Below are positions 5,932 to 32,262 of a stretch of 64,000 bases of DNA, piece by piece. The stretch comes from Halolamina sp. CBA1230 (GTDB lineage: Archaea > Halobacteriota > Halobacteria > Halobacteriales > Haloferacaceae): positions 434,001-498,000 of the forward strand of contig NZ_CP054587.1 of the NCBI RefSeq assembly GCF_002025255.2. Reading direction: 5' to 3'. The number at the start of each line of letters is the position of its first letter. Position 1 is the first letter of the stretch. The notes under the pieces were generated by a model. It had not been told where the DNA came from and did no database searches. It worked only from the letters and a program-made list of their open reading frames with translations. Made by a program: the position numbers and the translations under genes.

Positions 5932-7869
5932 ATGACTGATCTCGGCGGCTTCCAGGACCACGTCGCTCGCATCGACCTGAACGCGGGCGACGTCGACTAC
6001 GAGAGCATCGACGACGAGGACGCCCGCAAGTACATCGGCGCGCGCGGCCTCGGCGTGAAGTACGCGTTCGACAACGGCCCCGACGTCGAACCGCTGGGCG
6101 AGGAGAACCTCCTCGCCTTCATGAACGGACCGCTCACGGGGACCCAGGCGCCGATGAGCGGTCGCATCGCCGTCGTCACCAAATCCCCGCTGACGGACAC
6201 GGTGACCGACTCCCACCACGGCGGATGGAGCGGCGCCCGCCTGAAGTGGGCCGGCTTCGACGGCCTGCTGTTCGAGGGGAAGGCGGAGGACCCCGTCTAC
6301 GCCGTCGTCGAGGACGGCGAGATCGAACTCCGGGACGCCGACCACCTCTGGGGGTACGGCGTCCACGACACGATGGACGCCGTCGAGGCCGAAGTCGACG
6401 GCGCGTACGGCAAGAACCTCTCGACGATGGCGATCGGCCCCGGCGGCGAGAACCAGGTGCGCTACGCCTGCATCATCAACGAGGACGACCGCGCCTCCGG
6501 GCGGGGCGGCACCGGCGCGGTTATGGGGTCGAAGAACCTCAAAGCCGTCGTCGTCAAGTCCGGGACCGAGATGCCCAAGCCCGCCGACCGCGAGACGTTC
6601 ATGGAGGGCCACAAGGCGGCGATGCAGGCGATCCAGGAGTCCGACGTGACCGCGCCCAACGAGGGCGGGCTCTCGGTGTACGGGACGAACGTGCTGATGA
6701 ACCTCACCGAGGAGATGGACGGGCTCCCGACCCGGAACGGGCGGTTCACCTCCACCAGCATGGAGGCCGAGGAGGAGCCGGACGAACCCAACATCGACTC
6801 CGAGAAGGTCTCCGGCGAGAACGTCGAGGAGAACATCCTCGTCGACGACCCGACGTGTCACTCCTGCCCGGTCGCCTGTAAGAAGGAGGTCGAGGTCGAC
6901 GTCCACCACAAGGGCCAGGATCTCAACATCCGGATGGAGTCCTACGAGTACGAGTCCGCGTGGGCGCTGGGCCCGAACTCGATGAACGACGACCGGGACA
7001 AGACCGCGCTGCTGATGGACCGCTGTAACGACTACGGCATCGACACCATCGACAGCGGGAACATGCTCGCGTTCGCGATGGAGGCCGCCGAGAAAGGGTA
7101 CCTCGACGAGTTCGACGAGACCCTGGAGTGGGGCGACGTGGACGCGATGGTCGAGATGCTCGAGAAGATCGCGGGCCGCGAGACCGACCTCGCGGACGTG
7201 CTCGCGGAGGGGCAGAAGCGCGCCGCCGCCGAACTCGACGCCCACGACTGCCGCCTCGACGTGAAGGGGCAGTCTATCGCCGCCTACGACCCGCGCGGCC
7301 TGAAGGGGATGGGGATCGGCTACGCCACCTCGAACCGCGGCGCCTGCCACCTGCGCGGCTACACGCCCGCGGCGGAGATCCTCGGCATCCCGGAGAAGGT
7401 CGACCCCACCGAGTGGGAGGGGAAGGGCGAACTCACCGCGACGTTCCAGGACCTCCACGCCATCTCGGACTCCTTCGACATCTGCAAGTTCAACGCCTTC
7501 GCGGAGGGTGTCGAGGAGTACATCGACCAGTACAACGGGATGACCGGCCGCTCCGTCGGCGAGGAGGAGCTGATGGAGGCCGGCGAGCGCGTGTACAACC
7601 TCGAACGCTACTACAACAACCTCGCCGGATTCGACGGCGACGACGACTCGCTGCCGGACCGCTTCGTCGAGGGCGCCGAGGACGCGGTGCCCGCCGGCGG
7701 CGGGATCGCGGGCGAACTCTGCGAACTCGACGCGATGAAGGAGGAGTACTACGACCACCGCGGCTGGGTCGACGGCGTCGTCCCCGACGAGAAACTCGAC
7801 GACCTGGGGATCGACGTCGGCCCGGGCACCGGCGTCTCCGCGAGCGGCACGGCGCCGGCCGACGATTGA
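5932..7869 (+). CDS. aor: Tungsten-type aldehyde:ferredoxin oxidoreductase
   Basis: A 645-residue member of the AOR family, which oxidises aldehydes to carboxylic acids with ferredoxin using a bis-pterin tungsten cofactor and a [4Fe-4S] cluster. The N-terminal pterin-binding domain shows YIGARGLGVKYAF and GPLTGTQAPMSGR. The cluster ligands are C309, C312 and C316 in TCHSCPVACKK plus C518 in FDICKFNAF. The second pterin motif region DPRGLKGMGIGYATSNRG is present. Length matches the family. ATG 5932 (MTDLGGFQDHV) is preferred over an upstream in-frame codon. The gene diverges from the SAMP-like operon across a region with two palindromes, suggesting linked regulation. The substrate aldehyde is not identifiable. 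Confidence 0.95.
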   Translation: MTDLGGFQDHVARIDLNAGDVDYESIDDEDARKYIGARGLGVKYAFDNGPDVEPLGEENLLAFMNGPLTGTQAPMSGRIAVVTKSPLTDTVTDSHHGGWSGARLKWAGFDGLLFEGKAEDPVYAVVEDGEIELRDADHLWGYGVHDTMDAVEAEVDGAYGKNLSTMAIGPGGENQVRYACIINEDDRASGRGGTGAVMGSKNLKAVVVKSGTEMPKPADRETFMEGHKAAMQAIQESDVTAPNEGGLSVYGTNVLMNLTEEMDGLPTRNGRFTSTSMEAEEEPDEPNIDSEKVSGENVEENILVDDPTCHSCPVACKKEVEVDVHHKGQDLNIRMESYEYESAWALGPNSMNDDRDKTALLMDRCNDYGIDTIDSGNMLAFAMEAAEKGYLDEFDETLEWGDVDAMVEMLEKIAGRETDLADVLAEGQKRAAAELDAHDCRLDVKGQSIAAYDPRGLKGMGIGYATSNRGACHLRGYTPAAEILGIPEKVDPTEWEGKGELTATFQDLHAISDSFDICKFNAFAEGVEEYIDQYNGMTGRSVGEEELMEAGERVYNLERYYNNLAGFDGDDDSLPDRFVEGAEDAVPAGGGIAGELCELDAMKEEYYDHRGWVDGVVPDEKLDDLGIDVGPGTGVSASGTAPADD

Positions 7870-7872
7870 AGA

Positions 7873-7939
7873 TGTCGCCGACGCGGGCAGCCGGCGACGA
7901 CTGACGGTGTCGCCGACGCGAACAGCCGGCGACGACTGA
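7873..7939. repeat. Two tandem 32-bp hairpin repeats (35-bp period) after the oxidoreductase
   Basis: TGTCGCCGACGCG followed by two variable bases and then CAGCCGGCGACGACTGA occurs at 7873-7904 and again at 7908-7939, differing only at the two central bases (GG versus AA). Each copy folds through GTCGCCG and CCGGCGAC arms. The last codons of the oxidoreductase (7852-7869) resemble the 3' part of the unit, so the repeat may have arisen by duplication of the gene end. It lies between convergent genes and could act as a bidirectional terminator. Confidence 0.75.
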
Positions 7940-28712: not shown

Positions 28713-30980
28713 TCAGCGGCCGTCGGTAGTCGGTGGGCCGGGTCGTGTCGGGAGCTGTGCCCGAAGGTCGGCGTACACGTCCGCACAGGACTCCCCGGGA
28801 TCGCGGTGGTCGGCGACTGTCCCGAGCGTCTCGAAATCACCGACGACGACGAGTCGGCGTTTCGCCCGGGTCAGCGAGACGTTGAATCGGCGCTCGCCCT
28901 CGTCACCGAACGTGAGGAAGCCGGAGCTCCCGCGATCGTTCGAGCGAACGAGCGAGAGCACGACGGCCTCGCGCTCGCTGCCCTGAAACGAGTCGACCGT
29001 GTTGACCTTGACCCCCCTGGTACTGACGTCCCGGTCCGCGAGCGCGTTCTCGATACAGTTGATCTGGCCCGAGTACGGCGTGATGACGCCGATATCCGAC
29101 TGGGACAGACCGCGCTCGCGGAGGCGCGCGACCTCGTCGGCGACGATGTCGGCCTCCGTGGGGTTCCGATAGGAGCTCCCGGCGGTCCGCTCCTCCCCGC
29201 CGGCGACGTCGTACGCGACGAGCGGGTCCAGATCGTCGATCGTCCAGTCGCGGTTCCGGTCGGCGGTCTCCAGCCGACCGCCGTAGAACGCGCCGTTGGG
29301 GAAGTCGACGATCGCCTCGTGCATGCGGTACTGCCGGCGGAGCATCGTCCGAACGCCGTCGTCGTACGTTTCGAGGAGATGCTCGAACAGCGAGACCTCG
29401 GCCTCGCGCCGTTCGAGCTCGTCCGAGGCGAACGGCGAAAGCTGTTTGTGGTCGCCCGCGAGCACCAGCCGGTCCGCACAGGCGTAGGGGATAGTGCTCG
29501 CCGGGATCGACGCCTGCGTCGCCTCGTCGAGCACGGCGATATCGAACTCGTCGACCTCGAACTGGCTGGCCATGCTCGTCGTCGCGCCGACGACGTTCGC
29601 TTCCGCGACGGGACCGTCGGTGTAGCGATCCGCGACGAGATCGCTCTCGGGATGGCCCACTCGGCGGATCTCGACCTCCTCGTGATCCTCGTCGACGGCC
29701 ATCGCGTGGAGCGTTCCGGGGTCCGGCTCGTCGGCCGAACTGGCGCCGACGAGGAGGTTGTCGACCGCCTGGTTCGAGTGGGCACAGGCGAGCACGCGCT
29801 GACCGTCCGCGACGGCCTGCTGGACGATTGCCATCAGGGTCCGGGTCTTGCCCGTCCCCGGCGGCCCGTGGATGCAGTAGACGTCCCGTGCCCGGAGCGC
29901 GCGCGAGGCGGCGAGCGCCTGGAACTCGTTGAGTTCGAGGTCGGTGTCCAGATCGGCGGTGAACTCGGGCGCAAAGCCCAGCGTGCGCTGGCCGGTGAGC
30001 ACCGCCCACTTCTCGGGGGTCGAGCGGACAGCCTCGATCCCGGCGCGCTCGCGGTCGTAGGGGACGCCGTTCAGCAGTGCGAGCACCGAGAACACCGCGC
30101 GGTCGTCGTCGAAGAAGCGCCGGAGTTCGGACTCGTCGGAGGTCCGATCGTCGAAGAAGGAGAGCCCGACCGCGCCGTCGTCGACGGTCGCGACACGGGC
30201 CTCGATCGGGAACGGCGTCTCCTCGCGGTCGATCCACACCGTCGAGGCGTCGGGGTTGGGGAGCACGAGCACCTCCGAGTCGGGGTAGATCCCGTGCTCG
30301 CCGGGGATGTCGATCCGCCGCTGGTCGTCGTCCTCGGGGATGGCGAACACGTGGACGGTGCCGTGGGACTGGGTGACCCGCCGCCCGGTGTAGATCGTCT
30401 CCTCGATGCCGCCCTCGGTCCGGCAGACGTGGCGATAGCCGCGTTCGGCCAGCGTCTCCCGGGTGTCCTCGCGGTCCTGCTCCCGGAGCGTCTCGACGGA
30501 GTCGACGAGCTCGTCCGCGAACGCCGCGCGCTCGTCAGCGTCCATCGTGTGGACGGGCTCGGCACGAACCGCCGTCTGGGTTCCCGACTCGGTCGCGTAC
30601 GCCGGCGGCGGCGACGGCTCGTAGGCGTCGGTCCAGAAGCGGAGCCGCCAGCCAACCGTCGTGCCGCCGATGGCGCTGGGGTCCAGCCGGGCCGGCCCGT
30701 CCTTCCGGGTGTCGTGGTAGACGTACACGGGTGCGAGCCCGCTGGGGCGGTACTCGACGTACTCGCCGGTGAGTTCCGCGGAGTCAGCCCCGTGTAGCGG
30801 GAGCAGCACCGTCCCGTCGTTGGTCACCAGCGAGTCGTACGCTTCGAGGCGTTCGCGGGCGGCCGCGACGGAGGGTTCGTCGACGCCGGCGGGCAACGGG
30901 TCGGTTCCGGCGGTCGCGAGCAGGGAGGGGTCGTCGAGGGCGAGGAACGCGGAGACGGCCGCATCGAGGAGATCCGACAT
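28713..30980 (-). CDS. SF1 DNA/RNA helicase (UPF1/DNA2-like AAA_11/AAA_12)
   Basis: A 755-residue protein starting MSDLLDAAVSAFLALDD. The C-terminal half contains the helicase motifs in order: Walker A HGPPGTGKTRT, Ia (ACAHSNQAVDNLL), motif II VLDEATQAS, III AGDHKQLSPF, motif IV RRQYRMHEAI, V VNTVDSFQGSEREAVVLS and VI NVSLTRAKRRLVVVGD. The N-terminal ~350 residues are haloarchaeal-specific and may bind nucleic acid. Family members unwind 5'-3' and act in repair or RNA metabolism. It is separated from cydA on the same strand. Its start (ATG 30980) abuts the tandem hairpin array. Confidence 0.93.
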   Translation of the reverse strand: MSDLLDAAVSAFLALDDPSLLATAGTDPLPAGVDEPSVAAARERLEAYDSLVTNDGTVLLPLHGADSAELTGEYVEYRPSGLAPVYVYHDTRKDGPARLDPSAIGGTTVGWRLRFWTDAYEPSPPPAYATESGTQTAVRAEPVHTMDADERAAFADELVDSVETLREQDREDTRETLAERGYRHVCRTEGGIEETIYTGRRVTQSHGTVHVFAIPEDDDQRRIDIPGEHGIYPDSEVLVLPNPDASTVWIDREETPFPIEARVATVDDGAVGLSFFDDRTSDESELRRFFDDDRAVFSVLALLNGVPYDRERAGIEAVRSTPEKWAVLTGQRTLGFAPEFTADLDTDLELNEFQALAASRALRARDVYCIHGPPGTGKTRTLMAIVQQAVADGQRVLACAHSNQAVDNLLVGASSADEPDPGTLHAMAVDEDHEEVEIRRVGHPESDLVADRYTDGPVAEANVVGATTSMASQFEVDEFDIAVLDEATQASIPASTIPYACADRLVLAGDHKQLSPFASDELERREAEVSLFEHLLETYDDGVRTMLRRQYRMHEAIVDFPNGAFYGGRLETADRNRDWTIDDLDPLVAYDVAGGEERTAGSSYRNPTEADIVADEVARLRERGLSQSDIGVITPYSGQINCIENALADRDVSTRGVKVNTVDSFQGSEREAVVLSLVRSNDRGSSGFLTFGDEGERRFNVSLTRAKRRLVVVGDFETLGTVADHRDPGESCADVYADLRAQLPTRPGPPTTDGR

Positions 30981-31039
30981 TCGTGTCGGACTGCGTCGGC
31001 ATCGGTGAAAAACTATCCGTCGACGGTGACGGCTCCCGC

Positions 31040-31284
31040 GAACGCTCGCGAGCCGTGATTGGCTACTCGCACAGTCACGGCAACACGCTCGGTGTTCGCG
31101 ACACGGAGGTCACGAACGCTCGCGAGCCGTGATTGGCTACTCGCACAGTCACGGCAATGCGCTCCGTCGCCGAGGCACAAAGGCCTCGGCAGGTCACGAG
31201 CCGCGATTCGGCTTTCACACAGTCACGGCAACACGCTCCGAGGCGACGACACGGAGGTCGTCGCCGGTCACGAGCCGTGACTGG
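31040..31284. repeat. 74-bp tandem hairpin array (about 3.3 units)
   Basis: GAGCC begins at 31050, 31124, 31198 and 31272, an exact 74-bp period. The first ~43 bases of units 1 and 2 are almost identical and unit 3 differs at a few positions. They fold by GCCGTGA and TCACGGC arms. The last ~31 bases vary but form a second hairpin in each unit: stem GGCGACGAC with loop ACGGAG in unit 3, GCCGAGGC with loop ACAAAG in unit 2, and GTTCGCGAC paired with GTCACGAAC (one mismatch), loop ACGGAG, in unit 1. Unit 4 is partial and runs to the deoxyhypusine synthase stop. The array fills the 304-base gap between the helicase start and that stop. No ORF is credible. Confidence 0.85.
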
Positions 31285-32262
31285 CTAGCTGTCCGCGAAC
31301 GCGCCCGCCACCAACAGCGGGAACACGAGCGTCGCCTCGGCCTGCACCTGCGTGTAGTTGGTCTCCTCCTCTTTGATCTTCCCCCACGAGACCGCTTCGT
31401 TCGGCGGCGCGCCCGACAGCGAGCCGTCGCCCTCCATCCCCGTGGAGATGTAGACGGCGTAGTCGGCGCCGCCGCGGAACAGGTTCGTCATGATCGCGTG
31501 GTGTTTGGGGACGCCGCCGCCGACGACCAGCAGCCCCGTGGTGTCCGCAAGCATCCCGTTCTCGATCAGGTCGTCGTAGTCGGCCATGATCTCGATGCCG
31601 ATGTCGGTGTCGTGCTTCTTGCGGTAGTAGTAGAGGAAGTTCCCGACCTCGGCGTCGTTGAGCGCGGGGCAGTACACCGGCACGTCGTTGTCCGCGGCCT
31701 GCTTCAGCACGGAGTCGGGGTCGGAGAGCGTCTCGCCGAGTTCGCGGGAGAACGCCGTCGGCGTGCGGACCTTCTCCTCGGCGAAGAAGTCGTCGAAGAA
31801 GTCGTAGAGGTACTCCTCGAGCCAGACGTAGCGGTCCGAGGGGACGTAGATGTTGCCGAGGCGGTTGATCCCCTCCTCGCGGAGTTCGGCCTCGTCGGCG
31901 TCCCACTCGCCCATCTTGAACGGTTTCGCGGTCTTGATCACGTCCTCGGCGATCGAGCCCGAGGTGGTGATGATCACGTCGACGAACCCCTCGCGCACGA
32001 GGTAGGCGACGACCTCACGCAGCCCCGAGGAGATGATGTTCGAAGTGAGCGTGAGGTAGATCTTCGCGTCCTCTTCGCGCATCTGTTTCGCGATGTCGAC
32101 GGCTTCGGCGAGGTGGGTCGCCTGGAACCCCGTGGTCGCGTACGCCTCGAGCATCTCGCCGAGGTCGAACTCCCCGCGGAAGTCGTACCCCCGGACCGGC
32201 TCGCCGCCGGGCTCGGTGTCGCTGCCCGGAACGACGTGTTCGTGGCTCTCCTGCTCGTCCAT
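31285..32262 (-). CDS. dys: Deoxyhypusine synthase
   Basis: A 325-residue protein starting MDEQESHEHVVPGSDTEPG, with the family features TSNIISSGLREVVAYLV, the NAD-binding TTSGSIAEDVIK, PVYCPALNDAEVG and GNGxxPKHH-like VVGGGVPKHHAIM, and the SGAPPNEAVSWGKI region with the catalytic lysine. The enzyme transfers the aminobutyl group of spermidine (or agmatine-based derivatives in haloarchaea) to a lysine of aIF5A. A longer in-frame reading to 32973 overlaps the acetyltransferase and lacks homology. ATG 32262 gives the expected family length. Confidence 0.95.
   Translation of the reverse strand: MDEQESHEHVVPGSDTEPGGEPVRGYDFRGEFDLGEMLEAYATTGFQATHLAEAVDIAKQMREEDAKIYLTLTSNIISSGLREVVAYLVREGFVDVIITTSGSIAEDVIKTAKPFKMGEWDADEAELREEGINRLGNIYVPSDRYVWLEEYLYDFFDDFFAEEKVRTPTAFSRELGETLSDPDSVLKQAADNDVPVYCPALNDAEVGNFLYYYRKKHDTDIGIEIMADYDDLIENGMLADTTGLLVVGGGVPKHHAIMTNLFRGGADYAVYISTGMEGDGSLSGAPPNEAVSWGKIKEEETNYTQVQAEATLVFPLLVAGAFADS

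Follow-up and report, generated by a model that had tools for sequence, protein, structure and literature searches.

Nested double-hairpin repeats lying mostly directly behind stop codons in the genus Halolamina

Judged from its sequence, the tandem array found behind the deoxyhypusine synthase (DHS) gene of Halolamina sp. CBA1230 belongs to a dispersed family whose unit, a 67-nt nested double hairpin, is conserved in structure above sequence; the first unit, in one orientation, usually has the stop codon of a host gene 0-2 nt ahead of it, and units follow each other head-to-tail. The best explanation, to be held tentatively, is that the repeats may well be a Halolamina-specific, REP-like structured family maintained as a 3'-UTR element. 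The analysis covers the searched and fetched genome stretches.

The array and its host gene

The window (the whole stretch of 64,000 nucleotides that was analysed) carries a tandem array at 31039-31287 with a period of 74 and 3.4 copies (TRF). The exact 74-bp period reported in the first-pass annotation was re-found in the sequence, with GAGCC at 31050, 31124, 31198 and 31272, as were the three distinct inner stems, each with its matching complement and with near-constant loops. The array folds better than its shuffles on either strand (z -4.5 and -5.5), and it matched no Rfam family above the gathering score and no tRNA. A separate tandem repeat of the window (7854-7939; period 35 bp, 2.4 copies) has an internal palindrome-like unit.

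The units are read on the minus strand. Unit 1 (31218..31284), the stop-proximal 67-nt double hairpin, has outer arms paired without mismatch and the best score of the genome with covariance model R1 (91.1 bits). Unit 2 (31144..31210, minus strand, 70.8 bits) has a different inner stem (GCCGAGGC/GCCTCGGC) and a partially decayed 5' outer arm, and unit 3 (31070..31136, minus strand, 80.6 bits) has the inner stem GTTCGTGAC/GTCGCGAAC. The array is closed by a partial unit composed of a 5' arm only (31029..31062, minus strand; nhmmer match L001:1530-1563), an ending seen at many other arrays too. Past the array, the sequence reads as a palindrome, CCGTCGACGG, followed by TTTTT (31008..31026, minus strand), which is terminator-like. 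The "first hairpin" described previously (GCCGTGA/TCACGGC) is a pairing that exists, but it spans neighbouring units, a unit's 3' arm pairing with the following unit's 5' arm, and the register was corrected. As the main fold this inter-unit hairpin was rejected, its Watson-Crick pairing across the family being 68% compared to 96% for the units' own outer arms (first units of multi-unit arrays). The array itself is thus as the first-pass annotation had it, while the unit register is not, and the dispersed genus-wide family had been missed.

The host gene (31285..32262, minus strand) codes for a DHS of 325 aa (NF003052 443.8 bits, cut-off 380) with a putative start at 32262. Its TAG stop codon (31285-31287) abuts unit 1, the array beginning at the first base past the stop. 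The array had been presented as an element upstream of an SF1 helicase, the IGHMBP2-like product of the neighbouring gene (28713..30980, minus strand; TIGR00376 310.7 bits, under the cut-off of 348.9). Its partner is instead the preceding gene, DHS. The helicase is not a conserved partner because DHS is followed by something other than a helicase in three related species with a close DHS: the following gene differs in G004 and G003, and G001 has yet another sequence there. Since the partial 5' arm and the palindrome with TTTTT lie past the third unit, the array is probably located within the 3' UTR of DHS. The DHS end carries 3.4 units here, 1 in G003 and 0 in G004, G001 and G002. In G005 and G006 (L139, L138) the best DHS match has merely 38-39% identity, the close orthologue being absent or in an assembly gap.

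Unit structure and covariation

The true unit is a 67-nt minus-strand double hairpin in which a 10-bp outer stem surrounds an inner stem of 8-9 bp. Its minus-strand order is CCAGTCACGGCKCGTGACC, inner stem, loop CTCCGT, inner stem, ACGGAGCGTGTTGCCGTGACTGTG and a spacer of ~5-7 nt. The inner stem is hypervariable yet almost perfectly paired, with 154 distinct 8-base sequences among the inner arms of 256 units. Standard pairs occupy 93.6% of pair cells in the 52 starting units versus 78.6% in shuffles. In 126 later-fetched units, few of which were in the training set and whose alignment, being fitted to the model, leans towards it, 95.0% of cells are paired versus 74.7% in shuffles, and two-sided changes number 531 versus 140; shifting the partner by one base in this alignment lowers pairing to 23-27%. 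Two-sided changes in such excess over shuffles bear out the earlier proposal of a tandem structured element whose covarying stems are under selection for a folded structure. The outer stem covaries as well: 18 orthologous first-unit pairs contain 17 two-sided compensatory changes, and outer-stem changes at orthologous ends pass 11 times via G.U and twice via A.C.

Orthologous gene ends often differ in the entire inner hairpin while the outer arms are retained, and some inner stems are shared by several loci. In three pairs of orthologous first units (L132 and L135, L103 and L181, L114 and L175) the inner hairpin is wholly different and the outer arms are kept, as if units traded inner hairpins in the manner of cassettes. 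Complementarity between the loop CTCCGT and an ACGGAG flank is common; a loop-to-flank pseudoknot is nevertheless not supported, because variant loops often have no matching flank.

Distribution in the genus Halolamina

Searching at the DNA level located other copies of the repeat, both at further places in this genome and within the genus. The first-pass annotation had suggested a covariance-model search; this search, with model R1 built from 52 units, finds further copies and a covariation signal. At least 70 units in ~36 arrays are present in this genome (E<=0.01), all but one of them on the main chromosome. The sole plasmid-borne unit found (L131, G000 C2:173743-173808) is decayed and lies between a cysteine-synthase-like gene and an IS200/IS605 tnpA-tnpB pair. 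All seven Halolamina genomes carry the family, with numbers ranging from at least 20 to at least 101 units each and a total, as a lower bound, of ~450 units across the seven species.

Among 170 genomes of the taxonomic family, matches at E<=1e-5 were obtained in the seven Halolamina and in one other genome, which has a single weak hit; the repeat is virtually absent from the 163 non-Halolamina genomes. None of the hairpins read behind eL15 in other genera of the family is unit-like. No description of these repeats was found in Rfam 15 or in the open-access literature searched. The repeat is apparently an undescribed hairpin-repeat family that is limited to the genus Halolamina.

Placement relative to genes

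Of the 148 distinct arrays in the seven species, 109 start between -3 and +5 nt from a same-strand stop codon, with 53 arrays at 0, 23 at +1 and 22 at +2. About 30 of the 36 arrays of this genome start within a few bases of such a stop. Random placement of each array inside its own gap gave an expectation of 4.7 out of 29 and a maximum of 12 in 200000 trials, with genes called by a purpose-written codon-score script so that individual gaps may be wrong. All multi-unit arrays examined are head-to-tail, and T-runs, where found, are located past the array. The copies being usually directly behind the stop codon, an action of the array on the end of the host gene's message is suggested. Hosts include genes for S8e, eL15 (identified by an Rfam leader match and by sequence), proteasome, A-type ATP synthase, pyrophosphatase, superoxide dismutase, lipoyl synthase and universal stress protein.

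In ~15 of the remaining arrays a second hairpin element is positioned ahead of or inside the first 5' arm and the stop codon is at least 47 nt upstream. Twelve arrays (L019, L035, L100, L119, L129, L131, L232, L236, L241, L251, L266, L268), which represent four independent sites, precede a divergent gene, with 42-46 nt between the beginning of the array and that gene's start codon. By eye, a TTTAA or TTTTA of TATA-like character was recognized between array and start at two of the sites, and the divergent-start arrays apparently sit just outside the core promoter.

Gain, loss and spread

The number of units at orthologous gene ends is 0, 1 or several, and many hosts have a mix of filled and empty ends; the element is therefore not essential. 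At filled ends TAA is commoner and TGA rarer than at empty ends and in other genes (TAA 54, TAG 30 and TGA 25 for host stops; TAA 85, TAG 125 and TGA 198 for other genes). At the DHS gene of G003 an old TGA has seemingly been displaced to behind the unit. Inter-unit spacers resemble the gene end of their own host above those of other hosts (p=0.037 for stop-hosted arrays, <0.0005 for all arrays). This resemblance, together with the solo 5' arms that end arrays, suggests that arrays grow by a duplication that takes in gene-end sequence. Where units from separate loci within a genome were compared, none were near-identical (maximum 92.5%, mean 65%), so the family has not spread in a recent burst.

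A second dispersed hairpin family, GCCAACCAGAA(N)TTCTGGTGACG, is inserted inside 67-nt unit palindromes, often beside another hairpin (L123, L127, L128, L160, L188, L191, L125, L175, L038; G000 C1:2695418-2695448). Exact-pattern copies number 18 in G000, 26 in G003, 14 in G004 and 0 in G001. This family is reminiscent of Haloquadratum, where the palindromes of PATEs are targets for insertion of SMR-A repeats (PMC3119063).

First and later units

If the sense transcript is the target of selection, G.U pairs should be tolerated above A.C on the gene-sense strand. The outer stems of first units display this asymmetry (G.U 46, A.C 16; p=1.8e-4 with related loci pooled, which makes p-values optimistic), while later units of the same arrays have no G.U preference (G.U 66, A.C 77), a difference that speaks against mutational strand bias. 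With first units restricted to those strictly stop-hosted, the counts are G.U 24 and A.C 10 (p=0.024; p=0.013 versus later units). In multi-unit arrays, Watson-Crick pairing of the outer stem reaches 96% in first units; in later units, whose inner stems hardly decay, the figure is 73-74%. The 3' arm of a later unit fits the first 5' arm more closely in 56 cases and its own in 21. The G.U bias and better outer pairing of first units and the match of later 3' arms to the first 5' arm favour selection on a sense RNA hairpin beside the stop codon. First-unit inner stems are without bias (G.U 12, A.C 15), and DNA-level maintenance of the palindrome may thus also act.

Possible roles and alternatives

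In the preferred reading, a 3'-UTR element, the array would be transcribed together with the host mRNA. The first outer stem would fold at the edge of the terminating ribosome and, once folded, would modulate termination and ribosome release or shield the mRNA 3' end from exonucleases, the later units being possibly spare 3' arms or decaying remnants. In haloarchaea it is the 3' UTR that determines which direction translational regulation takes (PMC2636863). Against the 3'-UTR element speak the 12 arrays at divergent starts, which are not behind a stop, the many empty orthologous gene ends, the first-unit inner stems without G.U bias and the weaker bias of strictly stop-hosted units. A more elaborate version, rather unlikely at present, is that the post-stop hairpin couples termination to mRNA fate: the ribosome would open the first 5' arm, any one of the several tandem 3' arms could re-close it and unit number would tune housekeeping output. 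Should this doubtful coupling operate, the repeats would be a genus-wide archaeal cis-acting RNA system.

A competing explanation, possible though on the doubtful side, is that of a selfish non-autonomous palindrome (REP/PATE/MITE-like) which inserts at gene ends, often bringing a TAA or TAG stop, and is tolerated, any mRNA effect being incidental and tandem copies coming from recombination. It would account for orthologous sites both filled and empty, for the TAA enrichment and TGA depletion at filled ends, for spacers that resemble the host's own gene end and for the seemingly displaced DHS TGA of G003, and it has known precedents in REPs and in haloarchaeal PATEs and SMRs (PMC3733652, PMC3119063). 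However, no RAYT scored over the cut-off, intact transposases are without a flanking unit except for a single decayed one, the compared loci have no near-identical copies that would indicate recent spread, and the pairing and G.U bias of first units are left unexplained. An unlikely alternative is a DNA-level boundary element, in which cruciforms or protein binding would stop polymerases or structure the DNA where genes meet, the 5' arm facing the protected gene end or promoter. Such an element unites both placements under a single rule, the 5' arm abutting either the stop codon or the upstream edge of the promoter, and agrees with inner stems that are near-perfectly Watson-Crick, with few wobbles and, in first units, no strand bias. 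The wobble of first-unit outer stems is strand-asymmetric, though, and a stop codon is no DNA-level signal, yet the spacing to it is exact to 0-2 nt in most arrays.

Covariation could also arise in neutral leftovers whose arms are kept complementary by template-switch correction and inter-unit recombination. The wholesale change of inner hairpins at orthologous loci where outer arms persist and the recurrence of inner stems are as expected from such processes; exact stop abutment, fixed orientation and a G.U bias confined to first units are not explained by them, which makes this account improbable. An ordinary local tandem duplication without relatives retains practically no credence: the array is tandem and head-to-tail and 5' flanks are common to two of its units, but ~450 units with one conserved structure and placement in seven species form a genus-wide family that excludes it.

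Several hundred units in seven species, mostly at known genes, constitute a natural set in which the same gene end exists in empty, single-unit and multi-unit versions. These versions render two questions directly testable, one being what a structured sequence does when it directly follows a stop codon in archaea, the other the selfish or functional nature of REP-like repeats. The contrast in G.U tolerance between first and later units provides a simple test of RNA-level selection versus DNA palindrome correction in repeat families.

Comparison with known systems

Integron attC sites are structure-conserved hairpins found behind stop codons in a fixed orientation. The Halolamina units are also structure-conserved, behind stops and in one orientation; unlike attC, their hosts are housekeeping genes and units are consecutive, without genes between them. 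Identity with attC was rejected as no integrase scored over the cut-off (TIGR02249 best 26.1 bits, cut-off 265). Intrinsic terminators are GC-rich hairpins behind genes, a description that also fits the Halolamina units, with the difference that these have no T4 run (0 of 279 units). In view of its absence the array is not a classical terminator.

The Haloquadratum PATEs are likewise transposase-free haloarchaeal palindromes, into which a second short repeat inserts, as here; they share ends with IS605-type transposons and are without target duplication (PMC3119063). A PATE-type link to the resident IS200 was searched for with model R1 at ten transposase loci, which yielded one decayed neighbouring copy only. 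A REP mobilized by a RAYT or by IS200 was rejected: NF047646 gave no RAYT match over the cut-off in the genome, the resident TnpA is of the IS200 type, and one decayed unit flanks TnpA, none otherwise.

The array would work like a stop-proximal REP, yet is not classed as a REP. REP/BIME elements are short extragenic palindromes in many copies behind genes, foldable in mRNA and in some cases near stops (PMC3733652), features that the Halolamina repeats share. They differ in being a single hairpin of 20-40 bp with an unpaired GTAG or CGTC tag, compared to a 67-nt nested double hairpin with a hypervariable inner stem in Halolamina, where the TAG or TAA that precedes the first arm belongs in most cases to the host gene as its stop codon and is not a REP tag. 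REP/BIME are mostly inverted dimers (PMC3733652), whereas Halolamina arrays are head-to-tail. The Halolamina repeats are further distinguished by their 0-2 nt distance from the stop in most arrays, by conservation of structure over sequence and by being archaeal and genus-limited. The closest experimental precedent comes from E. coli, where REPs no farther than 15 nt from a stop codon reportedly stall ribosomes (Liang 2015, as cited in PMC12306157); 109 of 148 Halolamina arrays, at -3 to +5 nt, lie inside that distance (<=15 nt from the stop).
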